From Thuidium tamariscinum (taxonomy: Eukaryota; Streptophyta; Bryopsida; Hypnales; Thuidiaceae), in contig OX344758.2 in NCBI GenBank assembly GCA_947034885.2, forward strand, positions 16,643,067 through 16,707,066: a DNA stretch of 64,000 nt, in the 5' to 3' direction. Position numbers and translations under genes: made by a program. Below, one piece after another: positions 22,428 to 60,191 of this stretch. The notes beneath the pieces are model-generated. The model saw only the letters and a program-made list of their open reading frames with translations. It did not search any database and had not been told where the DNA came from. How positions within the stretch are numbered: position 1 is the first letter of the stretch; every line of letters starts with the position of its first letter.

Positions 22428-23184
22428 GGATCATTGCAAGAAACACTCCACATTTTTGTCTCAAAAATGTAGTTTTTTGGCATAAGACTAGAAGTCCTGC
22501 ACAATCCTGCCAATACAGCATGTGTGCATTACGCCTATCAATGTTAGTTGTTGATTTTGGGCGCCCGTAAATTTGGGTTGTCGATTTAGTACTATGTAGT
22601 ACTATGCAGTACTATAGAGTGCTATGAAGTACTACTCAAGCCACTAGGAGCAGAAAATAGCAGAAAAAAGATCTATGGACTTCTTCATTTTTAGTAATTC
22701 AAAAAAAATTCAAAAAACCATTTTCTTAAAATCCATTTTTCTAAACAAAATTGTACTCACATTGCAATATAAAATTCCCCTATGAAATTTTTTCCCTCTT
22801 TATAGCCTTTGTGCAAAGGAAGGGCACTTTGACCCCATGTGCACAATAGATATATTATTATTTTCATAAAACTCGTCTTCAATCCTTGAAACTTTAGTAG
22901 ACCTCCAACTTGTACAATTTGTGGCTTCAAATTCCAATTTTTGAGTCAAGAATAAGACTAAAAATCACCAAAATGGCCAAGGTAGACATCCAACTGGGGG
23001 CAATTTAAAAATAGTAAAATAATTCTAATAATTTTGAAAAAATTATGGAACGTGTAAAAAAATTTTGTTCACCTTCTTCCAAATTTCAAGTCAAAAAAAC
23101 AAAAGGTGAAAAATTTATGAGCAAAAAACTACTTGTTGGAGGTCAAGGGGACAAAAAAAAGGACAAGTGTTTCTTGCAATCACC
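22428..23184. mobile_element. Non-autonomous TIR element, GATTGCAAGAAACAC family, copy B
   Basis: Left end GGATCATTGCAAGAAACACT and right end ACAAGTGTTTCTTGCAATCA form inverted termini around about 757 bp. The interior shares landmarks with copy A (32619-33338), such as the ATCCAACTGGGGGCAA / CCCAATTGGATGT segment read in opposite orientation. No open frame looks like a transposase. Confidence 0.65.
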
Positions 23185-24106: not shown

Positions 24107-26872
24107 TTAAACCCTAAAGAACCAAGGCCATTTTTTTGCAAAAACCTCTCAAAACTGCCATTTCTGCTACATTCACTTAAAAAAATAAATAAAAATTTAT
24201 AAAGAATCTAATCTTAGTATCTTGTACTTAACTTGATTGAGATTATGTAGTAGAATTTTCATGAAGTTTGACCATATAGATTGGAAGATATGAGAATTCA
24301 AAATTCAAAAAACAAGTTTCTTTGAACTATAGTCTCTAATTTCAAATGACTTTGAATGCCATTTGTAAAAATAATTTGCATTGTAATACCTTGAATTTGT
24401 AAATTTTTGTGTTATAAAACTGAGTTGAGGGTCTACGAAAAAAATTTCATATAGAAAATACTTGATTCCCATTCTTTAAAAAATTGTTAAGTAGAAGTAG
24501 GTTTAGGATTGAAAGAAAAACTAATGGTTAATAACTTTAAGATGGGATTAATATACAATAATCCTAACAATAAGATTGTTATAGGAAGTAAACATAACCT
24601 TGTTCATCAATTTCTTTTGAAAGATTGAGAAAATTGCATTCAAAAATGAATCCTATAAGTTATTTTTTCAAAAAGATGTTTTGATTGCTTCAAAAATAAG
24701 ATTGTCCATAACTTTCTCAATATAAGTCCAAATATAATTAATCAAACCTTCACATGTGGGCATAAATATATTATTTTAAAACTAGAAAATTCAATTTGAT
24801 TTTGGCTTTTTGCAAAAGAAATTGTTTCCCGCCAAATGAAAATTTGGACTTTTGTTGTATAACTTTTGCTCCCGGTCACCAATTGAAATATCTTCACAAA
24901 GCTAATTAGTTTTTTTATCATATGAGAAAGTTTCAAAAGATTTCACCAAAAATTGAAGTCATAGGAATGTGCTTGACATTCATTTTGTCCTCTAGGGAGA
25001 CAATGGTCCTTTACGGGTTAAGGCACAAAAAGTTTCATAACTTTAGAAGATGGTTTAACCCCTAAAGGACCAACATGCCTTTTTTGGCAATATAACTATT
25101 TTGGGTAGGTACGTGTGACTAGAGATTTTCATATTTTGGGACCAAATTTTAATAGAAGGTGTAGACAAGGAATATCTTTAAAGCTCAACAATTTTCATGA
25201 CTTTTGACTGCATGGTTAAAAAGTTATCACATGATATATTGTTTATTTCTCAACTCGGGCAGTTTGGACAGATCAGGAAAAATCACTTTTTTAGAAAATA
25301 AAAATTTGAAATTGGTTTAATAGATTTATATATATGTGGAAAGCTTTGAATCATTCCATTTGGACTAATGAGTCAAAAGTTATGAAGAGTTTTAGTTTGC
25401 GGGTTGTTATAGATTCCCTACTCTAAAATAAACTTTGAAGTCCTTTATTTTTACTCAATTTTCAATATTTTTGGAAAAAAATTAAAACATTGGGTGTACG
25501 TTGTTTATTACAACATTTGAACCATTGGGATTGGCAAGTTTCAATTTCACAAATAAATTTTTAACAATTTAGTATTTTAAATCATTCTCTACTTCTTTTT
25601 ACTTACTATTTTTTTCTATATGTTGTCCAATTCCAAATGATTTGAAATTTTTTGAGCATGTAGCCAACTTGCCTTGGAGAATGAATCCAATGAAGCACTA
25701 CCATTTTGGACTCTTTTTTATGCAAATGTGAGCTTGTAAAGTGCAGCTGCCCGGATTTTCGCAACGATAAAAAAAGGATTTTTGAAACTTCAAACACTAA
25801 TATCTTGTAATCCATATGGTAAAAATTTCTGAAATTTTTTCCTTGTCTTCTCAAACATGAATACTACAAGATCCTACAGTTATATGTGTCCAAAAACAAT
25901 ATTTTCCAAATATTTGGTTCTTGTGTTAGAAATGGCAATTTTAAAGGGGTTTTTTTTTGCAAACATAGTCAAAGAACTTTAGGGGTTAATCCCTAAAGGA
26001 ATGTTATCTCCTCAAGGCGTAAAATAGATTTTAGGTAGGTTCCTATGACCTACATTTTTTATTGAAACTTTTTGAAGTTCTTCCATAAGATCAAGAAACT
26101 TATTAGCTTTGTAGGAATATAATTTTTATTTCAATTGGTGTCCAAGAGCAAAAGTTATGTCATCTTAAACATCACTTCATATCATTGAGTAGAAAATGAA
26201 AACCACAAAAACTTGAAAATAAATTAAATTTTTTAGTGGATCATATTTTTGTCTATATGTGAAGCTTTGATTCATTCCATCTAAGATAGTGATACATGTG
26301 AAAGTTATGAACAATGTTGTTTTCTATTCAATCTAAACATCTTTTTGAGAAATGACTTATAGGATTCAATTATTTGTGCAATTTTCACAATATTTCAAAA
26401 ATAATTTTTTTGACAAGGCTTATGCATTTGTTAGAACAATTTCACCATTGAAATTATGGTGTTTCAATCACATCTTAAAATATATCAATGATATATTTTT
26501 TTCTTCAATCTTGAACCTACATTTATAATGAACAAAAAACAAATGTCTATTTGATGAATCTCTTTTCCTATACTTTCAACTCCAATCTTCAACAAAAAAC
26601 TTAAATGTACAGCCCATAATACAAATTTCTTTTGCAAAAGTCATCATAAGATGTTGACCAATGTTCCAAAAAAACTTTCTTTTGACTTTAAATGCTAATA
26701 TCCAACAATTTATACAATCATGGAATTTTTTATCACATGATCTCAAACAAGTACAAGATCCTATTATTAGATTCTAAAATAATAAATCCTTTCAACTCTC
26801 TAGTATGGATTCAACAAGAGCAGTTTTAAATGTTTTTTTGACATAAAACAGGCCTTGGTCCTTCAGGATTAA
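24107..26872. mobile_element. Cluster of three ~0.9 kb TTAA-flanked elements
   Basis: Three elements, each flanked by TTAA: 24107-25021 (starts ACCCTAAAGAACCAAGG, ends CCTTTACGGG), 25055-25988 (starts CCCCTAAAGGACC, ends CTTTAGGGG) and 25985-26872 (starts TCCCTAAAGGAATG, ends GGTCCTTCAGGA). The second and third share one TTAA. Right-end interiors of the second and third match the left interior of the first on the opposite strand (for example TGCCATTTCT and GATCTTGTA landmarks), so they are copies of one family in different orientations. TTAA target sites are typical of piggyBac-like transposons. No transposase is visible, so they are non-autonomous. Confidence 0.7.
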
Positions 26873-27511: not shown

Positions 27512-28194
27512 TCACTGCCTTGCCGGAGTTCTGGCCTTCGATTTCTTCTTGGTGGCACCAGCCTTTGACACACGCAAGCTCTTGTGAACAGCAGCCAACC
27601 GGGCCAAAGAGGCAGCCTTCAAATCAGCCCTGTAGCCATTGGTGGCAACCTACATCAATGAACAACACGTAGGTTAATACTCAAAAACGAAGATGCCCAT
27701 CAACATCGAAGGTTCAATGGAAATAATGTTGTAGAACAAAGAACAATCGAAAAGGAAGGCAAGTGCATTCAACATTTCCACAATGATAGAAGTACCTGGT
27801 TCACAACGGTCTTAGCCATCTTGCGGAAATCTTTCTTCAAGAGAGAGTTGTGACGCGACTTTGCAGGCTGGTTCCTCTGCTTGGTCTTCGTGGTGGTCAA
27901 GTTCACAGACAGACCTCCAGCGGGTGCGATTGCCACAGTCTTCTTGTTCGCCAACCCTAAAAAATCCATCGAGCGAGTAAGTACAGCATTTCTAATAACT
28001 TCAGTAGCGATTCAAGTGAACCTCACACAGACGACATAGGCAGTACCTGAGTACTTGAAAGTGTTCAAGTTGTACAAGTTGTTTGGCTCTGAGCTAAATG
28101 TGATGGAGGAAGTGTTGTTTCCATTTCTCTTCACCAAGAACCTGTTGTTGTTCTTGACCAACAACCAGATCAAGTCGTCCGATACAGCCGCCAT
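27512..28194 (-). CDS. RPL28: 60S ribosomal protein eL28
   Basis: Component of the large cytosolic ribosomal subunit. Minus-strand exons 28047-28194, 27796-27956 and 27512-27649 join as 447 nt (148 residues), close to the ~143 of plant eL28. The protein starts MAAVSDDLIWLLVKNNNRFL, continues with SSEPNNLYNLNTFKYSGLANKKTV, then the basic core KQRNQPAKSRHNSLLKKDFR, and ends with Lys/Arg-rich KKKSKARTPARQ; all are eL28 landmarks. An upstream ATG at 28203 (MFRMAAV) is excluded because a splice acceptor (TGTTCAG) falls one base before the ATG at 28194. The upstream partner is a 5'UTR exon whose donor is at 28786, giving a ~590-bp leader intron as is common in plant ribosomal protein genes. Confidence 0.95.
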
Positions 28195-29345: not shown

Positions 29346-31020
29346 TACTTTTATGATGGTCAAGCACCTTCAAATAAAGTATTCACCCTACCTTTGTGCA
29401 TCCATTGCCTTACTTGTTTGGGTATCTCAATTGAGTTACTAAGGTAGAAGCACCCAAAACCGTTAGTCTTTCTCCCCCAATCAATAAGTGGCACTAGGGG
29501 AGATTTGAGCCTTTGGAAGAATATGAATTCTCCAATATGAGGAAAGCTCTAAGAACATTGAAAATGTTGCCACAACAACAATCAAAACTTGACCAAGTGA
29601 TTCCCCCATCAAATGATATTAATTTATTAGTTATTTTAAGTAATTATTAAATATTTCAAAAATAATTTTTTAATAATTTTTTAATAATTTTTTCACATTT
29701 TTGACACATTCTGAAATTTTTGAAAAAAAAATTTATAAATTTTTTGGTAGATTCAAAAATTCAACTTGGTCTACAATATTGGAAACAGTTTCAGAGACGG
29801 ACCCTAAAACAATCTCTTGAATGCTAGAAACTCCTCTAATAATGGTTCAAATAATGTTAGCTTCTAAGCTTACAAGTGAAATCCAACCAAAGTTGCTTCA
29901 TAATTTATTTAACCTCTATACAATATTTCATGACTATTTTTTATTTTTTAATTATGAATTTATAAATACCTATTTTTATGACTGGACTCACATCCAACAA
30001 CTGTAGTAGATATATAAAATGCTCCAAATCCTATTGGTTGCTCATGAGAGCTTGTGGTAGTCTTTGGTGGAAGAAGGTGAATTAATGTTTTCTTAGGAAT
30101 ACAACAATTCAGAGCATTTCACTAAAAATAAAAAATACTAACAATATTTTTTGAATTATTTTCAATAAATTCTAAAAATATTACACCCATATTCCAAATT
30201 GGCTTCTAAAGGGCCAATCAATGTTTTTTTAGGAATAAAACAATCAAATAATTTCATTGAAAATAAAAAGTATTAACAATACTTTTTGAATTATTTTCAA
30301 ATGTGGGGATGAAAAGTAGCTTGCTACACCACCAAAACAATTTAAAATTTGATTTGTCTATACAGAATTATGGTGAAAAATATCATTTGTGATGGACAAG
30401 TAGAAATTCAAGTAGGGTAGTTTATACTAGAACAAAACATTCATCACAATGTCCGAAGGAACAAGGGCAAAGCTTGGTACATTAGATGAAATTCGATCAA
30501 CTCCAATAAAAGAAGACTGTAAGTTCCCAGACTATGGGAATAAGGGAACTACATAGTAGCAGCAATGTGAAATGGCCAAGCTTTGGCCACATCTTTTTTT
30601 TGCATTTCAAGATCTAATTTTTTTTAGAATTATTGACTTGACAAGAGTCAGACATTTTTTTCCTATTTTGGGAACAACAAGGTGAACACGCCTGAAACAT
30701 TTTGAGGGGATTGATAAATTCATGATAAAGGATAAGGAGGGGGATTTAGGGGACAATTGCTTCAAAAAATATAACTAAAGAAAATTTGGCACAAAACTCA
30801 AAGAAACCAAAATATTTTGCAACTATCTCATATAGCTTTAAAAGTCACATATTTTATATGTAACACTATGTAGATTGTAGGACAATCTTTGTATATAAGA
30901 GGGGTGGTAAAAAATAAAACAACCTAAGTTGGATATGTAAATTAGAAATAGTTGGAGTACAACCATTTCTAGTTTAGTCAAATACAGAAATTGTGTTAAA
31001 TATAGAATTCCATACCTCAT
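29346..31020. other. AT-rich intergenic DNA with a diverged duplication
   Basis: No gene is visible. A diverged direct duplication of about 100 bp is present at about 30080-30180 and 30205-30300, with shared TTAGGAATA-AACAAT and ACAATA-TTTTTGAATTATTTTCAA tracts. A fragment resembling the left end of the CATTAG family (GAAGACTGTAAGTTCCCAGA) is at about 30511-30545. Confidence 0.6.
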
Positions 31021-31935
31021 TTAACCCCTCAAGGCTAGACGACTTTTTGACAATGAATTTTTTTAATGGATTGTGCCACTTTGATACTTCTTTGCACACA
31101 AATGTGCTTGAAATTCTTAATTTCAACTATACAAAAGTGAATACTACTTTGTCTAATATACATAGAATTAATTGTAGAAAATTTTGACTAATGGATTTAT
31201 AGATTATAACAATTGTGAATGATCAACTTCATAGGCAAAAAAAAACATTTTGAAGAAAAAGCTTTTTGAGAAGATGAATAATGCTTTTTCATCCCCCCTA
31301 AGAAAATTGTTTTGAAATCTAAGGCAAATGTAATATTCTTTTATTTGAAAAATTGAAAAAAAAACAAAAAAAAACCCCTCAAATTTGTACATATTTTTGA
31401 AAAGAAGGAATACAAAGTCAAAATTGACCAAATTGGGTCCTAAGATTTAAAAAAGAATAGATATGTATAAAATGTTGAATTTAAATAATTTTTGGAACAT
31501 TTTCAAAAGAATTTGGATTCATTCTAATTATTTTCTATTCTTAATCATTGCACATTGAACCTTTTATTTTCTTTAAAGATGAAAATAAAAATTTGAAATT
31601 CTTTTCTTCAAATCTTATTCTTTCTTCAAATCTTATTTCTTAGAGAATAAAGACTCAAAATCTCAAAGAAAATATTTTTTCCATCTCTACTACTCTTTTC
31701 ATTGAAAAAACATTATATTTGCTCCCTTTTTCTACTAAACTACATTTCCTAAATAAAATTTTAAATACTTCTCATATTTAAATTATGAAAATTAAACAAT
31801 GCAAAAAGTACAAAAACTTTTTACTCTATAAGATCCTAGTTTACAAAATATTGAGATTTGTTTCACCTTGTTGAGAATTTGTCATTGAAAATTTGAAGAA
31901 GACACATTATGTCCTCTTAGTCCTTGAAGGGTTAA
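31021..31935. mobile_element. 915-bp TTAA-flanked element
   Basis: Flanked by TTAA at 31021-31024 and 31932-31935. Termini CCCCTCAAGG and CCTTGAAGGG are inverted copies. Its length matches the 24107-25021 element exactly, and the right flank TTAA-AGATATTAG is the same as that after the 26872 end. Likely an older member of the same family; the interior is diverged. Confidence 0.6.
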
Positions 31936-32053
31936 AGATATTAGATTAAATTTTTCAAATTGTTTTAACTAAAGTAATGTAAAAATTTAACCTAACTTTT
32001 GTCTCTAAATATTATTTCAGATTTCAAGTCTCAAAAAAAATTAATTAACGAAG

Positions 32054-32338
32054 CATTAGAGGATTTTTAAGGGCATTGGAAGACTGCGGGTTCCCGGACT
32101 GCGGGAACACAGTTTCTGCCGCGTGAATAGAAATCCTACGTAGTCAAGAGAGTGCCACGTCATAAATTTATTATTTTTTGAATAAAAAATTGGGCTTTTT
32201 TTTTAATATTTTAGGACCACCCAATTTTTTTTTCTTCTTTTTGGTAAATGCTAGCTTGACAACAACCAACAGTTACGGGAACAATTTCGGGGAACAATCC
32301 CGAAATGGCCCTTTGGAGGCCTCAAATCCTCTTTAATG
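32054..32338. mobile_element. CATTAG-ended MITE, copy 2
   Basis: Begins CATTAGAGGAT, then GGGCATTGGAAGACTGCGGG and a palindromic GGGTTCCCGGACTGCGGGAA. Ends with GGAACAATCCCGAAATGGCC and CTCTTTAATG. It is 285 bp and matches the 307-bp copy at 55792-56098 at both ends, including the ATCCTACGTRGTC motif. Termini are imperfect inverted repeats of about 30 bp. Confidence 0.75.
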
Positions 32339-32618
32339 TTTCAAACTAAAGATGTTTGAAAATGTCAAATAAAATGTTTCTTCTAAACCCTCTTTGAAAT
32401 TTGACCATAGCTTTTCATAGGAGATTAGAAGTCTAAAACAAATTTTTGATGACAAAATTTAGCTTCATTTCCCACATTAATTTAGTTCAAAATTTTAAAT
32501 AAAAGTTCTTTAACTATGTCTATATTACAATTGACAATTGACAATTCTATTTTTAAGACAATTTCTTTGTTCAATTTGACTCAACTATGAATAGTTGAGT
32601 TTCTATAAATCTTGATTT

Positions 32619-44890: not shown

Positions 44891-45878
44891 TTAACCCTTA
44901 ACTGCCCAATCGACCATATATGATCGATCTGAAATTTTAGGCCCATTTCTAAATGGGTAGTTAAATTCTTGTGACCGTTTTTTTATAAAAATTGGGCAAT
45001 TTTAAAGATTAGCTATTAAAAACTTTCATTTTTCAATGAAAAAAAGTACATATTTGATTATTGAGAGGTCTTCAAAGGCATACTTGTACTATAAGTGAAG
45101 TGTAAAGCTTGCCAATTTCACTTCATTTCCTAACTTTATGCAATTTCACTTAATTTGAGGTCTAAAAAATTGTACATATCCATTTGCTTTTGAAAATGGT
45201 CCCAATGGAAAGAGGAAAGTGTTTTCATGACATTCACCATTGAAAATTTAAACATACAACTATTGATTTGGAGTTATTTTCAATTTCTACTCATAAAAAT
45301 AATTGCATTTCAACAATTGCAAGGTGGATTGTGTAATGAATTTAATAGCTTTTCATGTGAACTTAAGTTTTTTAGAAGTGCATTTTCGTGTGCTAACACT
45401 TTTTGTAGTTGTCCATATTACCTCAAATCCCCCCCAAAATTTATATGCAAATTTGAGAAACATTGTGGGAAAAGGCAACATACTAAATATAGAAAATGTA
45501 CTCTTCTCTCGTCATAATCTCACAACTCCAATGCAGTTTTGTGCTCAAATTTTGTGTACTTACTAATAAACAAGCTTTTTAACCCCTAAAGCCATGAATA
45601 GCGTTTTTTAAGATTATAAATTTTTTGGGCAGTTCACTACGGATGGAGTTTTTATTTTATTTTTTCGAAATTTCAAAGAAAAAAAAAAATCCATCCGTAG
45701 TGAGCTGCCCAAAAAATTTATAATCTCAAAAAAAAATGTTCAGGGCTTTAAGGGTTAAACATCTATGCGATTAGATTTTGGAAAAAAATCAATTTGCTTC
45801 ACTGGGGATGACAAGTCCATGCACTCAGTTATTCGTAGTCAAAACACACTTGAAAAGGCTTGGGCATTTAGGGGTTGA
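44891..45878. mobile_element. TTAA-flanked element (family of 56199-57008), interrupted by a second MITE
   Basis: Left TTAA-CCCTTAACTGCCC; right GGGCATTTAGGGG-TTGA (one base away from TTAA). Over almost its whole length it is the reverse complement of the 56199-57008 element, including the same eroded open frame (45303-45566, containing MHFNNCKVDCVMNLIAFH). A 180-bp MITE sits inside at 45579-45758. No recognisable transposase; probably non-autonomous. Confidence 0.85.
45579..45758. mobile_element. 180-bp fold-back MITE nested in a TTAA element
   Basis: TTAA-CCCCTAAAGCC ... GGGCTTTAAGGG-TTAA with long arms (CACTACGGATGGA against TCCATCCGTAGTG) that make the whole unit a hairpin. The sister element at 56199-57008 lacks it and keeps one uninterrupted TTAA at the equivalent place, so TTAA is the duplicated target. 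Confidence 0.9.
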
Positions 45879-46149
45879 ATACTTGAATGAAAATACCCTG
45901 AAAATACTTTTTTGTGCATAGGGCCCTACCGAATCTGACCCTAGGGTACAGTACAGTACCCCATGATCCTGTCTTCAATTCTTCTATTTTGTGCAGACCC
46001 TTTTTTTGGCCTCCTTTAAAGCCACGAATTCAAGAGCCTGACTCAATTGCTTTGCAGCACCTGAACCTGAACCTGACCTGTGACCTCTACAGAGGGGATC
46101 TTAACTTAACTCGGGGTCACGCGTTTTCAGTTCGAGCATCCCCACAGCC

Positions 46150-46249
46150 ACACGGCCAAGCAAGACTGTAAACATTCTGGGCTATTGGATCTTCATTGTT
46201 AGAAAAAAATCAGTGGTCTAGAACATATTACAGTGTTGCTTGGCCATGT
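46150..46249. repeat. Hairpin with 22-bp arms
   Basis: Left arm 46150-46171 and right arm 46228-46249 (core GGCCAAGCAA / TTGCTTGGCC) pair with two mismatches around a 56-nt loop. The size is compatible with a plant microRNA-like foldback or a tiny MITE; nothing else supports either. Confidence 0.45.
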
Positions 46250-46263
46250 AGCCAGCGCAGTGT

Positions 46264-46514
46264 TAAATCATACCATCGAAGGTGGGCCCCGCAGGCTGGA
46301 TTTATCCAAGGAAAAATGCTGAAATTTTTTATTTTTTTTATTTTTTATTTTTTCCAAATTTAGAATTCAGATTGAGAATCAGAGACCCCAAATTACGTAG
46401 AGGTACTCTAAATATACCCCAAAAAACCCAACACAATTATAAACCCCAAACCCTTGTCAACCCCTAGTAAAATGAGATTTATCCCGTTGGGCCCACCTTC
46501 GATGGTATGATTTA
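46264..46514. mobile_element. MITE with ATCATACCATCGAAGGTGGGCCC-type ends
   Basis: Ends TAAATCATACCATCGAAGG, then TGGGCCC, and the complementary GGGCCCA and CCTTCGATGGTATGATTTA are nearly perfect over about 28 bp, and TTAA occurs at both borders (46263-46266 and 46512-46515). It is about 251 bp with a T-rich interior. Either a TTAA or a TA target would fit. Confidence 0.8.
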
Positions 46515-47616
46515 ACATTTTGCATGCAGCCATGGGTTGCTCTTAGCCCCCATGAAAAAGCTGATGAGACCTACTCAATGTACACTCAGTACCAGCCCTT
46601 CTTTTTTGGTTTTGGGGAGAAAGTCAAATTGGCTACACTTGTCATTCTTTATGTTGCCAACATGGCAAGGGCTAGATTTTTTCCAATTAATTATGCTAGC
46701 GATAGTCAATTTCAAGGATCATGTAAGTGGCACAATTTGCTTAGAGAAGGTGACCAATGTTGGCTCTTTGTGGAATTGTCAAAATGCAAAAAATGTGAAT
46801 TTTCTTAAATGTTGCAATGCTTTTTAGCACCACAAAGATTCATTATAAGGAAAGCCATTATGCAAGTTCATTGCAAGGCTTTTTTTTGGACCAGTGTCCC
46901 CCCTGCTGACTTCATTGCAGAGGCCAGATTTTGGAGGGACGAACTAGCAGAGGTCAGAATTCTGACAAACTAGCGAAATTTCGCTAGAAAAACCCCCCTG
47001 GTTCATTGTGTGCTTTGAATGGACTTGGGCACCATCTCCCATAGTACATAGTGAAAAATTAGCAATGTATAAACTAATACATATATATGAAGAAAGAAAA
47101 TCAAAATTCATTCATAGATGTTCATGGAAACCCTAAACCCTTGCAAACAACAAAAACACAAAGTGTTGATCAATCCAAGACTACAAGTACATCAACATCA
47201 TTCTATAGTTAAGTGATGCATCACATTAATTTTAGAATCCTAAAATAAGAATTGAAGTCAATGCCAATAATACAAGAGTACTTAAGAATACTCTAAAGCA
47301 TCAAAGACTTGGTGCTTAAGTGACTATAAAGAATTGCAAGCTTAGTAAGCAATGAAGGTAGAAAGTCAACTATGATGGAGGATTATATTGATTTCTATAA
47401 TTTTGACAGAGATTTTGCCCCAACAACTCTAATGCAACTAAATTAAAACTTTGTAACTTGCCACAATTATAGATGTAGAAGGTATTCATAATGACAGTCC
47501 AAATCATCTAGATCAAAGAAAAAAGAGCAATGTTGTATGACCAAAAAAATAATCAAACCTTGTGATTATTGAAACTCCTTTAATAAAGAGACCTTAACCC
47601 TAAAAGAATCATAACT

Positions 47617-47885
47617 CACTATAAGAAACCCCTATCTTTGGTGAGAAGCCCTAATTTTTATGACGGATTTTAGGTGATGTCAATGTTGACAACCTAAAAA
47701 TTTTATGTCAACAAAAATAACCAATGTAACATCAGTGTTAACATAAAAACATTGGACTATCAAAAATGATGTCACATTGGACGTTTTTAATGACATAAAA
47801 TTTTCGGGTTGTCAACATTAACATCACCTAAAATCCATCATAAAAAATTAAGGCTTGTCATCCAAAACAAGGGTTTCTTATAGTG
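47617..47885. mobile_element. CACTA-type MITE, 269 bp, 3-bp target duplication
   Basis: Begins CACTATAAGAAACCC and ends GGGTTTCTTATAGTG, inverted and flanked by ACT on each side (47614-47616, 47886-47888). CACTA ends with a 3-bp duplication define the EnSpm/CMC group. The arms continue through TTTTAGGTGATGT / ACATCACCTAAAA, so the element folds back along most of its length. No transposase, hence a MITE. Confidence 0.9.
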
Positions 47886-50800
47886 ACTTAATCTTCAATA
47901 GAATTCAATGAGTGGCCTTTGTATTCCTTACTGGTAGAATTCTATAAATGAGACCAACTTTCAATGTTTTGATTGTAACAACCATGGTATGAATTCTCTA
48001 AAGACCTCATCCTTTGGCCTCTTCTTTCTAAATTTAACATACACATTTTGCCAAAAGCAAACAACACATATAATTACTCTCTGAAGAATAAAAATTAATA
48101 TGTAAGTGCATCAATTTTTGGAAAGTGTGCTTTTGTTCCATGGTTCTCTACTCTGCATTGAGTTTATGTCAATGTTACATGTTGTGAGTTTCCAAGTTTG
48201 CTAAGTGTTGGCTTCTAAGTTTTAACCTACAATGAATTTAATAATTTAAGAGCTAACTATCTCACAACACTTGTTGAACCACATTGCTTTCATTTTCATT
48301 CATCTTTGTACTCCCTGATTCTAGATATATTTAGGTGTTTGATTTGAAACTCTTTGTGCAATGAAGTATATATACTTTGAAACTTAGGAGAAGAAAAGAA
48401 AGAAATGAAGGGCAAAATGCAACAAAATAAAAGACAAAAATTTATGTGCTAAAATAACAAGATTTAGAGCACTTATGGAAGCCTTCTAATAAATTAGTAG
48501 GAAAAAAATAGCTATGGTAAAAAACCAAAGTAATAGAAGAGATGGTCTTGTGCTATGACAACATCAATGAACTCTTTGTGCAATTGGGCACTAACTTTCT
48601 ATATAAACACTTTATCTATCACTCTTCAACAACATTAGACAAGTCATTGTTGTCCTACATCTATAGAGAAACAAAATCCTCTTCCACCACTAGAATTAGG
48701 TCTTAGCTCTAGCAAACAAACAATGGATAAAAATGACAAGGTCAATGATTAAAGATCAACGACGCTAGGATGTGAGCGTGTGAGCGTGAGCCTAATAGCG
48801 GTGAGCGGGGATTTTGTGAGCCTAGAGCCCAAAATTTTAATATTTGATATATTTTTTTAAATTCTAGTTAAAAGATCAAAAGATTGATTTTTTTTTCATC
48901 AAAATGTATTATATTTTGAAAATATGACCTTTTACCGTGGGACCTATGACCGTGAATTTTAGATTCAAAAGCTTGACAAGTTGATGTTACTGCAGGTTTA
49001 AAATTTATATTACATTTTGAGAGGCCGTCTCAAAGTAGGTTAAGTATAAATAATTCAGAGGCACTTCTAAATATGAGAAGAAGATAAATGTGATGATGAT
49101 ATTATAGGGAGTAGAACATTTTATAAATAATAAAAAATTCTTTCATTGCAACAAAGAATTTATATTGAAATTTGAATAGAATATATTGCTACTAGATTTT
49201 GAGAATTTCAAAAATAATATATCATGGTTATTATGTATGTACTTTATATGTGCTAATATCTTTCAAATAATTCTTGTTCATTCACATGTCCTAATAATTA
49301 CAACAATAGCAAGCACTTGTTTTCACTTCATCTAAATTGAGGGTGAAAATACAAATGAACATGTCTATCTTACAATCTAATTACAAAATGCACAATCAAC
49401 AAAAAATATAATAAAGGTGTTTGTAGCTTAAAAATGTGCTACACTTTCAAATGGAAGTCCCATTTATTCTTCTAAAATGGGGACAAGTATAAGTTGAAAA
49501 ATTGCAAAATATGATGTTAAAAACCTTCAAATTAGGGTTTGTCCCAAACAAAGCATATTAAGTTAACTAGATCTATGCAAGGAACAAAATTCACTTGAAT
49601 AACATTATGTTTGCAATAATATTTCTTGCACTTTCCCATTGATTGCATTGATTTTTGGTGGATGCCTTACTACTCCTATGAATTTGCTTGCCATTCAAAA
49701 TGAAAGGGATTTCTTCAACATGTATTGGTTAAAGATGAATCCACTATATATAGTCAAAAAGCCTAAACAAGGTGTATAGACATCGAAGTGACATTGGCCT
49801 GATGAACTGTAAGTTGAATCCAACTTTTTTAAACTTAATGATTTTGGTATATGTAAGATTTGTATTAATAAAAACATGCTAGACCTTAAGGATCTTGGGT
49901 TGATACCTAAGAACATGGAAATGCTTAGATTCCATGTCCCATTTTGCAATTTGGTTTGAACAAAAGTAAAAATCTTGAGTTTGAAATGTCATGCTCTTAT
50001 ACTCACACTTCTGCCTTTTTTAAATAGGGGGGAGTAGAAGGTGTACTAGGCTTAACAAACAATAATAATCTTGTATATGACCTATATGTACTTTTGAATG
50101 GCTTGACATTGTTACCTTGGTTTGTGTGAAATTTTTTCTATATCTATGCAATTTTGATGTATTATAATCTTTTTATAAATCCACTATGAAGCATAATCAT
50201 ATTGAACTTTATAATTACAGTCCCGAGTTGCACTCTAGCAATGGCCAACCTAATTTGAACCCGAGGATGAGAGAAGTTAACTTTATTGAGGTGATGAGAA
50301 TCACTTTTAGAATTGATCAGGAGATCCAATTTCCTTATGTCAGACCAAAATACTTCTTCTCCTTTCAAGTGCGGAATTTAAGTACAAATGTGCTCCATTT
50401 GAAGCATCTCATTGAGTGCATTTGCAATTTTTTCAGTCTCCAAATGTCATTATAATTTAGAAATTTTCATATCCTATTTAATTAGAGAGGCATTTTCTAA
50501 GAATTTCTTTGCAAATTTAAGCCTTATAGTTGCTTATGTACATGAAGGCTTAAACTTAGTCATCACACATGGCAATTAATAAAGCCAACCCAAGTTTTTA
50601 AGAAGCTTACATTCATCTATTGTGGATTGTTTTTTCTAAGTTATATATTGGAATGTAGACCAGCTAGTTCTTTTATTATCAATTTTTGCAAAGATGATCA
50701 TGAATGAAGTCATTATTCAAATAGATTGCAACTTAAGGTGTTAAGAAAGGAACAAAAAAATATGACAATAAAGGTAATATTGTTTTCATAAATCTATCTT

Positions 50801-52089
50801 ATTGACAATATCAAAAGTCTTAAAATGCAATCAAATCATTTAGCTTATAAAATTGTTGATTATAATGCAACTCTATAGGAATACCACTAAGTTTTGATTT
50901 CAAACTATATACATCCTATCTTCTTTAGATATCAATATTGCATCCTTCTATTACCTACAAAGTTAAATATGTTGATTCTACAATTCTTTGGTAATCAGTA
51001 GCTTTTCTACATCCTTATCCATTTTTGTTATTTAATAAAACAAACAAGCTCTTTTACAATCTACCATTGGAACAGATAGATCCTTTGACTTATACACAAT
51101 GTAAATTGCAATAAAGTTGGCTTGAGCATTATTACAAATGAGTTCTTTATAAATTGAATTTGACACCTCACTTTCTACATGACCTTATTTAAACTATAGC
51201 AAAAATGAGTTGGCATTTAATAACCTCACTCTACTTTTATCATAGATGGCAATTGTTATGATTTTGCAATAGGTAGAGTTATAGATGTCTCACGTGATAA
51301 TTGTCCATGATTTTACTCTCTTCACATGATTAAATATAACACTTAAATTTATAAAATTGTCACCTTGTTGCATCCGTTATACAAGATTGATTCTACTCCA
51401 AAGTTCATTCATGAGCATTTTAAATAAATTGTAGACCTTCTCTTGCCCTTGTCTTGAGAATACACTATTATAGATATATTTCATTTGAGCATGTGCATCT
51501 TTTCATGTTAGCAATTTAATCAATCTCACCACCATCGTTGTTATTGCTCTAAAAAGAAGATATAATGTTGTATACACTGGACAAGCTAATGAGTTAGAAT
51601 CACTAATGCATGATTGTAGATCATCTCTTTTAATTTGAATTCATTGTGAATAAACAACAACACAAGGAACTTTGCTTACTTTCCACCATACGAATACCAT
51701 ACTCAAATATCAATTTCAACTTAAATTAAGTCTAAAAAAAAGTACTAATTTAAAAAAAATTCTAGGATCAAGTAGACAAATCTACAAATAAGTTTATTGA
51801 GGGTTTACCATAATTTAAAAAAATCTAATAACACTTTGTTGAATCAATTATCAACTATAATTTAACCACCTACCATCAAGAATATTTTGATGGCAAAATG
51901 AAGAAAATTACTTCATTAACATTTGAGAAAATTTGAAGATGAGAACTTGACTCTACTCATTGTCAAAACATAGGAATTGTGTTTAGTGTAGAACTTTGTA
52001 GTCACCCCTTTTCTTTTGAAATTTTACCAATTGTCTTTTTCTGTAGAAAAACTACTAGTAAACATATAGTTTTGCCTAGTTGAAGTGAT

Positions 52090-52980
52090 AGGATAAACTA
52101 ATAGTTGTAGTTTTGTGGAAATTCAGTAAAGTCACATTAACTAGTAGTTACAGCTTTTACAAATCGTCTGTAACCGTTTGGAAGCTGATCGGCCGGCAGT
52201 TCGGTCGGTTCCAGCGTCTTCCATATAGTCTGACAATTCATTTTCTTCCGCCCCCACTCTCTCGGTCTTCTAGGTGTACAATTCGATTTTCAGTCGATTT
52301 TGTCTTGTTGTAATGAACTCCTTCAAGTATTAATACATATATATATTTTACAAATTGTGTTTGTGTAATTGTGTCCAGTGATTGGACTTGTTGTTATTTT
52401 GAGGTGGAGGCGTATTCTAATTGTTTCTTGTGTATCCAGTGATTGGATTTTGAAGGAGATTTTGTGTGTGGTTGTGAAGACTTGAGTAATAAATTGTATT
52501 GTTGTATTTGATTAATTAACAAGTTGTGAATTACTTGCGTATGTTTGATTTAGTACTTGATTCTGGTTGTTGATGTGATTGGAACAAGTTGTTCAAATTA
52601 TTTAGTTGTGTGAAGTGAGAACCAGTGATTGGAATTGGGAGTGATTTGGTGTGCTTAAGTGGAACAAATTGTGTCTGCGTTATGTCTAATTGACTGCATT
52701 GTTATTGATCTGAGATTCATAACAAATTGGTTAAGTAATTATTCTTTTGAGAGTTTTGCTCGTTTGGGAATACTTGATTGCTGGATCCGAGGTTTGGAGA
52801 CAATTTGCACGACTATGGAATTATTTTGGGACTAAAGATGGATGTGTTAGAGATCAACAATTTGTCAGAGCGAATGGAGCAATGCTGGGCTAAACAAGGA
52901 CCAGATGGATCGAATGGAAACTAAAACAACTAGTTGAACCTCTGCGGGAGAGAAGTTGTGAATAATCAGGTAAGATAATC
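52090..52980 (+). other. Unassigned leader-like segment, possibly a retroelement fossil
   Basis: A patch of higher GC content (52190-52280) is followed by a T/G-rich leader with a repeated CCAGTGATTGGA and, at 52838, a short frame MDVLEINNLSERMEQ reminiscent of the start of plant retroelement gag genes. If it is an LTR element it is a broken fragment with no visible second LTR. The family call is weak. Confidence 0.25.
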
Positions 52981-54700
52981 CCTTCCTTTTAAAATTAAAC
53001 TAATCGTATGGGGATTGTTGATCAAGCATTAAACTTTGCACCTGGATATTCAAATTAATAAGAAATCTTTTGCTCTCAAATAGTCAAAATAAAATGCTAT
53101 GATAGTTTAAGTTGAAATTAGACTTGATCAACCAGTTGTTGTATTAAGGAATCGATTTGAGTAATTTGAACAAATTGAAATCATTCCATATTGAGTCAAT
53201 GTTGTTTTGGAATCACGTTTAAAACCATTTTTGGCAAAGACATTCAACAAATTGTTTAACTAAATGGAAATGTTTTGAATGATTGTAAAGTTTGCATCAG
53301 AACCAATTGTTATTTATCGTATTAATTTGAAACCATGTGTTCTGATAATTACAAGTTAACATTCTAAATGAAATTGCACATACAGTGATTATGCTACTAG
53401 TTGTTTTACGATCATAATTAATTGTTTTGGTGAAATAGACGTTGATAAATTTAATTACCAGAACAAGTTGTGTAGGAATCTGTTAATCTAATACTAATTG
53501 TAATAGTTACTGTTCAGTACTATGTTAAACCATTTGTATGGCGATGTGTTGATGTCAATTGGATATTTGTGTGCCACTGACCAATTGTTTTTGTTTCTGA
53601 ATTATGCGCGAGCCTGTTTGGAGTAATCTGCATCAACAACTGGTTGGGATAATTAATTGGTGTTGTTTGGTTGATTTCTGGTTTTACTTTATGAATTACA
53701 ATTAGTCATGTTGTGCAGAAATTGTGAATCTACTGATTAATTATAAGAATTGTAATTTTATAGTTGCCAACAAGTTGTAAACGACTGGTCCTGTTATTTG
53801 AATTTATGCTAACCAGTTGTGTTGGAATTTGCTTATATAATTAATTGTTGTCTATTAGTTGCATAGAGAAGTTGTCAATAAATATTATCTTACCAAACCA
53901 TTAGTCCAAACAGACTGATTTGGTCTCTCTAGGTCATTTGGGACTTGAACAAATGGTTGAAATCTAAATTCATTGATTAATTGATATAGATTTGTTATAC
54001 AAACTAATAGTTTTGAAAGTGATACTTGATAAATCATTTGTAATTAGAAAGGAAATTTATAAAGAAGTAATTAATAGTTGGAGTTGTGTGAACAAGTTGT
54101 CTTATTAGGTTCGTTAGATATGGTTGTTGGGAAGGAAGATTTGGTTTAGAGATGGAATTTTAGTTTAGGACAAGTTGTCTTTTCCTTGGGTTTTTGGTTT
54201 TCAGTCTTATCAAGGCTTAATTCCAACCACTTGTTCGAAATTGGGTATTAGCCAATTAGTAAACTAATTGTAGGATGCTTTAACTAATGGTTGTGAAGTG
54301 CAGATAAAATAAGGAGCTTGCATTACACACACTCATGCCCTGCATTTAGATAGAAACAAATTGTTTTTAGATAGGACTGGGACTATTTCCTTGTGCATCC
54401 TAATTTAGTAATTTGGATAGCTAAGTAGTGACAGCAACAATTTGTTTGGTAAAAACAATTACCAGTAATTAATGAACCATGTGATACTCAATTGTTGTTA
54501 TATATATAATATTATATTTAAATTGCATTTAAGTCTAGATCATGCATGACAAATTGTGGGTCTACACAACTAATTGTTTATTAGGAATTGAGCCACACAC
54601 TAGTCCAGGACCGTGACTGCATTCATGCGTCCATAGCATTATTAAGGATTGGCCAACAAATTTGTGTACTTGGGAATAAGAGTGGATACGAATTGTTAGA
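52350..54700. repeat. Dispersed array of about forty ACAA-N-TTGT-type motifs
   Basis: Degenerate copies of AACAANTTGT / ACCANTTGT / ACTAATTGT recur roughly every 40-70 bp with unrelated DNA between them. Examples: 52350 (ACAAATTGT), 52519 and 52582 (ACAAGTTGT), 52664, 53247, 53302, 53462, 53579, 53769, 54171, 54355, 54434 and 54550. The core is a near-palindrome. The block stops before the fold-back at 54828. The nature is unknown: a decayed minisatellite or clustered protein sites are both possible. Confidence 0.6.
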
Positions 54701-54827
54701 AATTGAAGTGTTGTTATTGTGTATTTCCTATTCCATTTCTAATTACAAGTGACTTTAGCCACGATACGTTAGACTATTTGATCATTCCCCTCGATTTGAA
54801 CCCCTATACTATAGTCTTGGGTTTTGT

Positions 54828-55211
54828 GGGAATTAGACAAAACTTGGACTACAAACTTTAAACCTCATTTTGGCATAGTAGAATAACTTTCTTCTTAAAA
54901 CTTAAAACTAGTAAAAGTTGGTAATTCAAGTTAAATTTCATTTCCAAAAATCCATTTTAGATTTTAAGAATCCAATCAAAAGTTATAGACAAAATTCAGA
55001 GAGGGGTTGGAAATGCCAAGGAAATTTGGCATGTCCAACCCCTCTCTGAATTTTGTCCATAACTTTTGATTGGAGCCTTAAAATCTAAAACGGATTTTTG
55101 GAAATGAAATTCAACTTGAATTAGAAACTTTTATTAGTACTAAGTTTTCTAAGAAAAGTTATTCTACTATGCCAAAATGAGGTCTAAAGTTCTATACTAA
55201 ACACAATTCCT
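54828..55211. mobile_element. Long fold-back element, ~190-bp arms
   Basis: Arms 54828-55018 and about 55025-55211 pair almost continuously (for example CATTTTGGCATAGTAGAATA against TATTCTACTATGCCAAAATG, and CAGAGAGGGGTTGG against CCAACCCCTCTCTG), closing on ATGCCAAGG/AAATTTGGCAT. The longest near-perfect blocks are toward the centre. No target duplication could be identified, so superfamily is open. Confidence 0.85.
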
Positions 55212-55791
55212 GCATTTAAATTAACTAAATATGAGAGGTTGAGCTTTTAGTAATCTTGATTTACATATCCCATATCAGTTGTTGTACCTCCTACCACCCC
55301 TTTTCTATAAAGAGCTTGTCTTCTCAATCAAATTCACCCACAACAAATGGCTTGGAAACCATGTGAGGTAGTGGCTCAACACTATTACTCCACTATAAAA
55401 ATGCTAAGATTTTTTACAATGCATTTAATTTCTTTGCCTTCTTAATGGACAGTCGTTGACGGCCACACTATTTTGGATCCAAATTTGTTTTCAATAAATG
55501 TTAAAAATTGATTAACTTCTACATTTTTTTTGCCCTTTCAATGGGCAGCCGTTAACGACAGTGCTTTTTGAACCTAAGTTTGCTTTCAATACAAGTTAGG
55601 AATTGATTAGATGTTGTAATTTTTTTACATTCTCAATGGGTAGCTGTTAACAGCTACAGTTTTTGGATTCAAATTTGTTTTCAAGGAATTCTAGAAATTA
55701 ATCAACTACTACAATTTTTCTACCCTTTCAATGGGCAGCCGTTAACGACAATGCTTTTTGAACCTAAGTTTGCTTTCAATACAAGTTAGGA

Positions 55792-56098
55792 CATTAGAAG
55801 AAATTTGAGGGCATTAGGAGACTGCGGGTTCCCAGACTGCGGGAATGCAGTTTCTGCCCTGTGAACCTGAATCCTACGTGGTCGGGACACTACCACGTAA
55901 TATTTTATTTTATTTTTTCAAAATTTTATTTTTGTACTTATTTTCATATTTCAGGACCCAAATTTTATTTTATTTTATTTTATTTTATTTTATTTTATTT
56001 TTCCATAAAAGTCGGCCTGACGAGGATCTGCGGCATTGGGAGCCGTTTCGGGAACAGATCGAAAACGGTCTCCTAATGCCCTCAGATTTCATCTAATG
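55792..56098. mobile_element. CATTAG-ended MITE, copy 1, inserted in the tandem array
   Basis: 307 bp with 31-bp inverted ends (CATTAGA-GAAAT-TGAGGG, then CATTAGGAGAC). The left side carries the palindromic GACTGCGGG repeat, the middle a (TTTTA)n run at 55962-56002. Sister array units read GTTAGGAATTGATCAAAT with nothing between GGA and ATTG, so the insertion left no target duplication. Confidence 0.9.
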
Positions 56099-56198
56099 AT
56101 TGATCAAATACTGTAATTTTTTTACCTTCTGAATGGGCAGCCGTTAACGGCTACGGTTTTTGGATCCAAATTTGTTTTCAATAAATGTTAAAAATTGC

Positions 56199-57008
56199 TT
56201 AACCCCTAAATGCCCAAGCCTTTTCAAGTGTGTTTTGACTATGAATAAAGTGCATGGACTTGTAGTCATCCCTAGTGAAGCAAATTGATTTTTTTTCAAA
56301 ATCTAACCTCATAGATGTTTAAAAAGCTTGTTTATTAGTAAGTACACAAATTTTGAGTACAAAATTGCATTGGAGTTGTGAGATTATAACGAGAGAAGAA
56401 TACATTTTCTATATTTAGTATGTTGCCTTTTCCCACAATGTTTCTCAAATTTGCATATAAATTTTTTGGGGGATTTGAGGTGACATGAACAACTACAAAA
56501 AGTGTTAGCACACTAAAATGCACTTCTAAAAAACTTAATTTCATATGAAAAGCTATTAAATTCATTACACAATCCACCTTGCAATTGTTGAAATGCAATT
56601 ATTTTTATAAGTAGAAATTGCAAATAACTCCAAATCAATAGTTGTATGTTTAAATTTTCAATGGTGAATATCATGAAAACACTTTCCTCTTTCCATTGGG
56701 ACCATTTTCAAAGCAAATGGATATGTAAAATTTTTTAGATCTCAAATTAAGTGAAATTGCATAAAGCTAGGAAATGAAGTAAAATTGGCAAGCTTTACAC
56801 TTCACTTTTGGTACATGTATGCCTTTGAAGACCTTTCAATAATCAAATATGTACTTTTTTCAGTAAAAAATGAAAGTTTTCAATAGTTAACCTTTAAAAC
56901 TGCCCGAAATTTTTTTTTAAATGGGCACACGAATTTAACTGCCCATCCAGAAATGAGCCTGAAATTTCAGGTCAACCATATATGGTCGCTGGGGCAATTA
57001 GGGGTTAA
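56199..57008. mobile_element. 810-bp TTAA element inserted in the tandem array
   Basis: TTAA-CCCCTAAATGCCC ... GGGGCAATTAGGGG-TTAA. The flanks, AAAAATTGC before and CTTCTACAATTT after, are continuous in the sister unit at about 57190 (AAAAATTGCTTAACTTCTAC), which is the unoccupied site with one TTAA. Its interior is the reverse complement of 44891-45878 without that copy's nested MITE. A TTAA duplication restored at excision is typical of piggyBac-like elements. No transposase is seen. Confidence 0.92.
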
Positions 57009-58271
57009 CTTCTACAATTTTTCTACCCTTCCAATGGATAGCTATTAACGGCAATGTTTTTTGAACCTAAGTTTGCTTTCAATACAAGTTAGGAATTGAT
57101 CAAATATTGTAATTTTTTTACCTTCTCAATGGGCAGCCATTAACGGCTACGATTTTTGGATCCAAATTTGTTTTCAATAAATGTTAAAAATTGCTTAACT
57201 TCTACAATTTTTCTACCCTTTCAATGGATAGCCGTTAACGGCAATGCTTTTTGAACCTAAGTTTGCTTTTAATGCAATTTAGGAATTGATCAAATACTGT
57301 AATTATTCTACTTTCTCAAGAAGCAACCATTAATAGCTATGGTTTTTGGTTTTAGGTTTGTTTTCAATACATGATAGGAATTGATCAAATGTTGTAATTT
57401 TTCTACCTTCTCAATGGGTAGCCATTAATGGCCATGGTTTTTGAACTCAAGTTTGCTTTTAATATATGCTAGGAATTGATCAAATGTTACTATTTTTTGC
57501 ATTCTTAGTACATAGCCATGTTTAGGATTGCTTCCAATCATTTGGCCAATCCCTCGCACAAGCAAAGATGTTTGAATATTGGGTGTGATTTACATTTCAT
57601 TTTTGGATTACATTAGTCATTTTTATAGTGCATGACAACTAATTACATTTGAACATCATTTCAAAGATTTTTATCAAGCAAATCTACAAACACAAAGATC
57701 AAATGTTACACTTTAGCCTCTTTATTTTAATGAACTATAGTTATAATTGTATGACTTTTTGAAGAAGGAAACCATGAAGACTCTTTTATCCTGAGTAGTT
57801 GAAATATCAATTGAGGGCAATTTCAAAATCAATATTCGTTTATGTTATATGAAATCTTTCCAAGTTGTAAGGTGTTTTTTTTTTAAGAATGATGTTGTGA
57901 ATCTAATTACACACTTTGTTACTTATTGTTATATAGAAATGAGTATATTTTTCTATGTGGCTTTGGAGAATTATGGGGGGAAGATAATAGATGTTATGAA
58001 TGTTATTATTAAATCAAGGAGTACCAATTGGATGCAAGCAAAAGTTACAATTCATATAAAATTGAAAAAGGATGAAAGTCTCAAAGTTTTTTTAGCAAGA
58101 CATTTATGAGATGGGATGGAAACTACTATCTGCAAAGACAATTTACTATTATCAATTGAGATCATGCAGACTATTTCACGTGGCATTGTATTGTTGAAAG
58201 TATTGTTTTGGAAGTCATGGCGGACATTGCAACTATGTGAGTAGCATTTCATAAAGTCAATTGGTAATTTC

Positions 58272-58298
58272 TTTATTTTATTTTATTTTATTTTATTA
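58272..58298. repeat. (TTTTA)n microsatellite
   Basis: About five TTTTA units in a row. Confidence 0.85.
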
Positions 58299-60191
58299 AT
58301 TTTCATTTCATTTGACTTCTTAGTCTCTAAAACTTGTTTAGTTTGAAGCATTGCCTTAGAAGCTTATAATTACTATAAATCCTTTAATTCTTGAAGTTGA
58401 TTTAGGGACACACAATATCTTCTTTAGCTCTATTTCTATGACAACTTAGTTATATAGAAAGATAGATGGCAAGCTATAAAGGGGTATTCATGAAAAGTTT
58501 GAGATTTTCATGAAGCTTTTTTTTTCATTCCTTGAACATTGTAAGGTGTTGTTGTAGCAAGCATGACTTCCTCTACATGTATTATAATTTATAATATTGA
58601 AAAAATGTGTTTTCTATTTTTTAATTTGATTTTCTTAATCAACACTTCAATTTTGATGTTTTCAAAATTTTAATATTGTACTTCATTTAAATTCTTTTAT
58701 TAGAGCGGCCTTTTCATCTAATTGCTATAACTCAGTATGAGGGTGTAAAGCCAAACTCTTTGATGAGGTACTAAAGCCTTTACAAGGAATACAAGCGTCT
58801 ACAATTGTTTTCAAAACTCTTGATTTTACAACCACACATGATGATATAGAGATTGATAATGGCTCTCTAGTTGAAGACATCACACTATTTGACTTATATG
58901 AGTAAGGTTTATCTATGTTTTGTTTTTCAACAATTTGATTGTAAGTCTATACTTTGTAGTTTAAATTGTTATCACTTACTCTAATATATAGTTTGTTGTT
59001 TGTGCACTTGGATAAATCCATTGCTAAAGCAATCCCTATCTTTTTATTGTCATTGTGGATTTTTTAGAAGTCCATCTTTCAATTTTTGCAGCTTCTTTAT
59101 TTATATTGAAGATCTAGCATCAACTTATGCTAATGTTTCTTCTTATTCATCTTTAATTTCTCTATCACCTCATAGATCTTAGAAATTTTTAAGTATATTT
59201 TTTTAATTTTGAACTTAGTAATATGAGTTAAACAATATTTTAATTTATTTTCATGATTTGATATTTGATTTCTATTGCCTTTGCATATGTATAATGTGGC
59301 AACCATTCCATGCCATGGCTTAAAATTTTTACCTATGCCCAAATTAAACAATAAATCATGTATGAACCTTGAATTGCACTACACCATTAAAATTCAAAAA
59401 CTTTCTCAAAGCAAAGTTCAACTTGGAATTCAATGAATTACTACCATTGGACTCATTATATAATCTATTTTTAGAATTGATAAACCTGAAAAAGGATAAT
59501 TCAATAAGGAGGGGCATTGACTTGAAAACTTGTTGTTTAGGTCATAGGGATTAATACATTTATTTGGTATATAGTATATGACTACTATATTTCAAATAAT
59601 TAGTGTTCAAGATATTTTGTTTTTATTTAAAATCATATTTATAAAAATAAACAAAATAGATGGACCACTTCATCATTCAAATTTACATGAAGGCCAATGA
59701 TGAAGACTACATTGATTACTTAATTATTCAAAAGCATTGTTCATGATTTAATGCTTGTAATATTTAAACCTTTTACTTTTCAATAGATTTAGGTTTGGCC
59801 GCCTCATAGCCTACTCTTGTTTTTCTTTATATTTCAAACTTCATAAATGTCACCCCTACCATGGTATTACAATATATTCTAGTTTTACGTTTATGTGCTT
59901 TACAGTGAGACATTCTAAACAACTTCACCTATTTTCATTGTATAGTAGCTTATATACACTATCTATATTGACTATATCTCAATTTTAGGAAATATATTGG
60001 TTCAATTTTTTGGTACAAAATTGTATAGTGGCATATTCATTTATTGTTCATTTGGATTATAGATCCTCACATTTAATTCCACGGTCATAGGAACCCAATA
60101 AGTTTACAAATTTTAAATGGAAAAAATGGAGGCTCACAGGCTCATAGGCTCATGCTCACACGCTCACATACTAGCATCCCCGATTAAAGAT

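Follow-up and report, generated by a model that had tools for sequence, protein, structure and literature searches.

A putative Mutator-like element in Thuidium tamariscinum with nested insertions, one of them densely populated by a short palindrome

The DNA analysed here is a stretch of 64,000 nucleotides from Thuidium tamariscinum (assembly GCA_947034885.2, contig OX344758.2, positions 16,643,067 to 16,707,066, forward strand), referred to below as the window, with positions counted from its first letter. It contains an element of 11,426 bp (48757–60182; no strand assigned), here termed the outer element, which is most probably a transposase-less transposon of the Mutator type that was enlarged by later insertions. 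One of these, a unit of 2,855 bp (51998–54852, + strand), holds all 38 perfect sites of the palindrome ACNANTNGT in the outer element. The sites form an array at 52026–54696 (+ strand; first start 52026, last start 54688) and are candidate sites for a dimeric protein acting in trans, either a transposition factor or an anti-silencing factor resembling VANC of the Arabidopsis VANDAL transposons.

The outer element is bordered on both sides by the 9-bp sequence ATTAAAGAT (48748–48756 and 60183–60191, both + strand). Its inverted ends lie at 48757–48806 (+ strand), where GTGAGC repeats are found, and at 60132–60182 (- strand). The ends align over 47 columns with 85% identity and a gap (blastn), or over 39 nt with 87% identity in another alignment; paired without gaps from the outermost bases, they agree at 32/40 and at 35/47 positions (74%), the latter value being lowered by a 1-base gap. 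The register of the duplication was taken from this ungapped pairing, in which C at 48757 stands opposite G at 60182, and which thus sets the element to 48757–60182 and the target site duplication to the 9-bp ATTAAAGAT. An earlier note on this DNA had described an inverted-repeat unit of about 11.4 kb with a 10-bp direct repeat at its borders and a further sequence pair inside its termini. The unit itself is confirmed, and the 10-bp GATTAAAGAT is present at both borders (48747–48756 and 60182–60191; 0.39 copies expected in the window), but a 10-bp duplication was rejected in favour of 9 bp: only the latter permits gap-free pairing of the ends, and the additional G belongs to the right end as its final base and has a counterpart on the left by chance. 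As to the inner pair, CCTATGACCGTG occurs exactly twice in the window, once inside each end and in opposite orientation (48943–48954, + strand; 60080–60091, - strand); GTGTGAGC is also confined to the two ends, yet is compatible with chance (two copies in 17 of 100 shuffles). A third copy of GATTAAAGAT, at 26867, shows no link to the outer element; it marks one end of an inverted TTAA-type element around 24.1–26.9 kb (ends placed by eye; 67% inverted similarity over 845 columns).

Exact 9-bp repeats that lie 120 bp to 20 kb apart outside inverted ends were scanned in the window, with 50 positions paired without gap. The ATTAAAGAT pair ranked highest with 35/50, the best value from 40 dinucleotide shuffles of the window being 29. 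Two other pairs exceeded 29, one with 33 (45546–56355, both copies of one TTAA element) and one with 30 (24132–25961, within an inverted element). When the word length was set to 8 bp, three pairs ranked above it (49, 44 and 41), all derived from other repeats as copies or foldbacks; at 10 bp every pair stayed below 28, that of the outer element included, which favours a duplication length of 9.

Mutator-like elements are characterized by ends more than 75% identical and a target duplication of 8–11 bp, with ends of 100–500 bp in the terminal-inverted-repeat (TIR) type, according to PMC3903597. The outer element carries ATTAAAGAT directly outside its ends with nine of nine positions identical, and its ends exceed 75% identity in both the 40-position ungapped and the gapped comparison, the 47-position ungapped value lying just below. 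Strong similarity stops at about 47 bp, and further in only the 12-bp pair is found. The 9-bp duplication, the inverted ends and the TA-rich target make a Mutator-type element the best fit; of the two classes that the earlier note had offered, the other, hAT, for which the target duplication is 8 bp, fits less well, given nine exactly repeated bases and ends that pair gap-free at 9. Non-autonomous TIR-type Mutator-like elements have in common with it the length of the target duplication (9 bp), the inverted ends, a TA-rich target and nested insertions (PMC3903597, PMC9168764, PMC6446971). The shortness of the strong end similarity, the missing transposase and the single copy set the outer element apart from them.

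All six frames, with stops written as X, were compared with Pfam over 48757–51972, 51900–55300, 55300–57500 and 57480–60181. No Pfam family reached the cutoff in any frame across the outer element; two weak matches (E 0.31 and 0.023) were both below the cutoff. This profile search bears out the earlier statement that a transposase is not recognisable. The outer element is non-autonomous or dead, and a missing MURA-type transposase is what is expected of a non-autonomous Mutator-like copy. Rfam returned 0 matches at gathering score, and ARAGORN none. The pattern of the outer ends had 0 matches in viral_contigs and genome_contigs, collections of viral and prokaryotic sequences.

The size of the outer element, which the earlier note had tentatively read as that of a large new family, is in part secondary, as about 4.0 of its 11.4 kb consist of three later insertions. 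The proposed capture of tandem arrays stands insofar as a 95-bp array lies inside, and the statement that most of the content is repetitive holds for part only, as nested units, foldback and 95-bp array account for about 5.4 of 11.4 kb. The case shows that part of a large 'new' transposon can consist of smaller ones stacked together. The 95-bp tandem array (55426–57500, + strand; limits approximate) comprises about ten units and is interrupted by two elements, neither with an assigned strand. The first, of 307 bp with ends CATTAG...CTAATG (55792–56098), has no target duplication, the array sequence continuing straight across it, and has a diverged copy from 32054 (75% over 191 columns, blastn). 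The second is a TTAA-flanked element of 802 bp (56203–57004) with an inverted second copy at about 44895–45872, 91–92% identical in two blastn pieces, in which TTGA replaces one TTAA. The array was also considered as a second array of palindromic sites (GCCGTTAACGGC) and rejected, with compensatory changes in 55 of 70 pairs versus 51.8 in shuffles (P 0.12, ten units); an earlier test over 18 positions had given P 0.012 and was set aside, as 8 of these positions were not units.

The third insertion, the 2,855-bp unit, lies within a foldback and splits its left arm. The outer part of this arm (51918–51997, + strand) ends in GAACTTT (51991–51997), and its inner part (54853–55022, + strand) starts with AAACTTT, the duplicated target with one mismatch; the right arm is at 55023–55280 (- strand; outer limit approximate). 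The arms align as 54854–55019 and 55026–55191, and 51972–51997 is 96% complementary to 55186–55211, the portion before 51972 aligning weakly. When 51850–51997 is joined to 54849–55022, pairing with the right arm is restored, with a score of 297 versus 270 and 87 for the separate pieces, and the restored arm pairs across the junction except for the doubled AACTTT. The pairing of the joined arm places the unit at 51998–54852. An alternative assignment of 51972–51997 and 55186–55211 as the ends of a nested 3.24-kb element was rejected, these being the interrupted foldback arm. By eye, (G/A)AACTTT flanks the unit on both sides and its ends are GTAGTC and GACTAC. It has no Pfam domain at the cutoff and no stop-to-stop frame of 100 aa, the longest listed being 73 aa, and resembles a small mobile element devoid of genes. 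No duplicated target was found for the foldback itself. A second, more diverged foldback of the same kind is at 30881–32618, itself broken up by one TTAA and one CATTAG element.

Of the 52 copies of ACNANTNGT in the window, the 2,855-bp unit contains 38; the remainder of the outer element has none, and 14 are elsewhere. In 500 dinucleotide shuffles of 52000–54800 the mean was 1.17 and the maximum 5. When the same six letters are arranged in 180 orders, the palindrome stands at 38 and the next best at 8. An unbiased sliding-window scan of gapped words gave ACAANTTGT as the top word (13 copies versus 0.1 expected), and of 480 palindromic patterns at 215 window positions ACNANTNGT scored highest (log10 P -46.7), followed at the next place by an AT repeat (-19.6) and then by -8.2. 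A matrix of the motif fitted by expectation-maximization (EM) ran near its upper limit of site number, and the argument therefore rests on the exact counts. A search for six exact spellings of the motif gave no literature match, and such a search finds only those strings. A separate word, TTGCAA, is present 10 times at 48736–51590 versus 0.96 expected (log10 P -7.1), which is weak given the number of patterns and windows tried.

The sites are spread evenly along the unit (6, 5, 5, 10, 8 and 4 in six bins; Kolmogorov–Smirnov (KS) p 0.85), their spacing is irregular (11–193 bp), and their flanks are on average no more alike than those of random positions (29.4% versus 28.8%), the most alike pair reaching 62.5% versus 52.5% at random. 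Even spread, irregular spacing and unlike flanks argue that recent tandem duplication is not the source of the sites. In 28 of 38 sites the central base on the + strand is a purine (p 0.005), which amounts to a slight orientation. Sites with 0, 1 and 2 mismatches number 38, 30 and 112, versus 1.0, 17.0 and 125 in shuffles, a spectrum that fits about 50 sites near perfect at landing and a subsequent decay of about 4.3% per position. Divergence between the two foldback arms is 7.3%, which corresponds to about 3.6% in each arm if both were alike at first, and the comparison of 4.3% with about 3.6% indicates that the sites decayed about as fast as their surroundings.

Dense arrays of one short motif are described for VANDAL elements of Arabidopsis, where they serve anti-silencing in non-coding transposon DNA: VANC21 binds YAGTATTAY, a word dense in non-coding DNA of VANDAL21 and scarce outside it, AGTTGTCC or AGTTGTAC is present in VANC6 targets, and the motif arrays are embedded in tandem repeats with a single orientation (PMC5735166). 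The moss unit shares with VANDAL21 and VANDAL6 a dense array of one short motif (8–9 bp in the latter) in non-coding transposon DNA that is rare elsewhere (PMC5735166). A high density confined to the element, as in VANDALs, is what the counts of 38, 0 and 14 give. The array differs in being palindromic, of another sequence and outside tandem repeats, and the unit has no VANC gene and a duplication of about 7 bp, the target duplication of VANDAL elements being 9 bp. Neither VANC nor VANA was found in the unit, where no family reached the cutoff and no frame reached 100 aa. The word AGTTGT, present 14 times on the + strand and 3 times on the - strand of the unit, was given no weight. Many copies of a short motif within a transposon, bound there by TNPA-type proteins, are also known from CACTA elements such as En/Spm and Tgmt* (PMC2613891). 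Spm TnpA and MuDR MURA are further transposon proteins linked to demethylation (PMC10398659).

We propose that an old non-autonomous Mutator-like transposon inserted by cut-and-paste and left the 9-bp duplication; its transposase, supplied in trans, would have recognised the subterminal CCTATGACCGTG as well as the GTGAGC-rich ends. Other elements would subsequently have inserted into it, among them the 2,855-bp unit, whose body may have offered dense ACNANTNGT sites to a dimeric DNA-binding protein made elsewhere. As long as the source element was active, selection presumably maintained or added the sites, each read by a symmetric, dimeric protein; since landing they have decayed at the rate of their surroundings. 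Many dimers along the whole unit would most likely have kept it open to the transposition machinery or unsilenced, as VANC arrays do for VANDALs. What the sequence shows directly is the ends, the duplications, the nesting and the array statistics; the Mutator class, a transposase in trans, the binding protein, past selection and the function are inferred. This combination of an outer Mutator-like transposon with a protein-binding array in the unit is considered somewhat more probable than not; the readings weighed below overlap partly with it, and their probabilities are not additive. A further-reaching version, held only tentatively and on balance doubtful, places the unit in a transposon family outside the Brassicaceae VANDALs that has made its own ACNANTNGT array, to which a specialised dimeric protein would bind and either relieve silencing or promote transposition. 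Sequence-specific anti-silencing by motif arrays would then have arisen independently, through the gain of single sites and without expansion of tandem repeats. A non-coding unit saturated with a palindromic motif of another sequence, set among randomised flanks, in any case provides a concrete sequence for asking whether such arrays arose more than once.

Several observations weigh against the proposed combination. For the outer element, an end similarity of about 47 bp is short for a TIR-type Mutator element (PMC3903597), blastn found no second copy of its ends in the window, where each of the two main units is single-copy, and neither a transposase nor a binding protein is visible. For the 2,855-bp unit, the matching ends comprise 6 bases identified by eye, and local alignment chose another, weak pairing; the 7-bp duplication has one mismatch and fits no superfamily that the analysis could name. 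YAGTATTAY and AGTTGTCC/AGTTGTAC occur 0 and 0 times in the unit on both strands, and the ACNANTNGT sites, unlike VANC arrays, are not in tandem repeats, as Tandem Repeats Finder (TRF) reported none in the unit and the mean flank identity matches that of random positions. There is no sign of selection on the sites since landing. Confinement also weakens when the motif is relaxed: of 106 ACAANTTGT sites allowing up to one mismatch, 36 fall within 52100–54800, and of 222 matrix matches at the middle threshold, 59 lie in the unit.

Among the alternatives, the best placed is that the array consists of binding sites for a transposase or a TNPA-like protein needed to move the unit, CACTA-like and without an anti-silencing role; we regard this as possible, at clearly lower probability than the proposed combination. 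The short inverted ends and duplicated target of the unit suit it, as do the dense motifs of CACTA elements, for example 24 in 732 bp at one Tgmt* end (PMC2613891). The even distribution over the whole unit is not subterminal, however, the sites are palindromic, and in place of CACTA ends and a 3-bp duplication the unit has GTAGTC and about 7 bp; moreover, both roles may coexist, TnpA being linked to demethylation too (PMC10398659). That the unit was captured from a regulatory or intron region of the host, with the motif bound by a host transcription factor, is unlikely, even with a strand-asymmetric composition (GC skew 0.231 at 52001–54000) and a promoter- and splice-like stretch seen by eye near 52160–52970 in its favour, as the unit lacks a domain above the cutoff and a 100-aa frame, and outside the unit the window, genes included, has a 59-fold lower density of the motif per kb.

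Less probable again is that the motifs are all that survives of an ancient tandem repeat after decay of its repeat unit. A 95-bp tandem array close by, three occurrences of CCAGTGATTGGA at 52375–52633 (by eye) and the one pair of sites with flanks 62.5% alike (at most 52.5% in the random set) agree with such an origin; a mean flank identity equal to random next to six near-perfect positions, the irregular spacing and the TRF result do not. It is highly improbable that the outer 11.4 kb are not one transposon at all but an inverted-repeat pair with a chance direct repeat. The single copy in the window and the missing transposase would be in keeping with that, against which stand 35/50 paired positions versus at most 29 in 40 shuffles and an exact subterminal pair in the expected orientation.

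A viral counterpart of the array was also sought in viral_contigs among 41 stretches chosen for three close ACAANTTGT sites, a choice that inflates their P values; all 41 were scored and the best 14 compared. Of these 14, seven have flanks 65–89% alike and are repeats, including the best (log10 P -18.2 versus -46.7 in the 2,855-bp unit); the idea of a viral counterpart was set aside. The other seven lack such flanks; the strongest, L005 (1554–4408), contains 13 ACNANTNGT sites versus 0.92 expected, with a flank identity of 0.43, and was likewise picked for three close sites.

Elsewhere in the window, elements with CCCYTAA-like ends and TTAA flanks are found at 25055–25989, 31021–31935, 44891–45876, 45579–45758 and 56199–57008; we take the TTAA flanks of this group to be a piggyBac- or Kolobok-like duplication. 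The copy at 44891–45876 has TTGA instead of TTAA as its right flank. For the TTAA element at 45583–45754 an empty site is present in the same window, the copy at 56203–57004 being without it and reading AGCTTTTTAAACATC on the matching strand. A CACTA-type miniature element (47617–47885) has ends CACTATAAGAAAC with ACT on both sides (by eye), the inverted pair having also been computed. The 10-bp tandem repeat TAGTACTATG is present in 4.8 copies at 22587–22634. UbiA and nucleoplasmin-like domains are present in the window, as well as an exon of ribosomal protein L28e (eL28; 27769–28011, - strand), which matches ribosome chains of the Protein Data Bank (PDB) with 8 distinct sequences, the best of them presumably from plant ribosomes.

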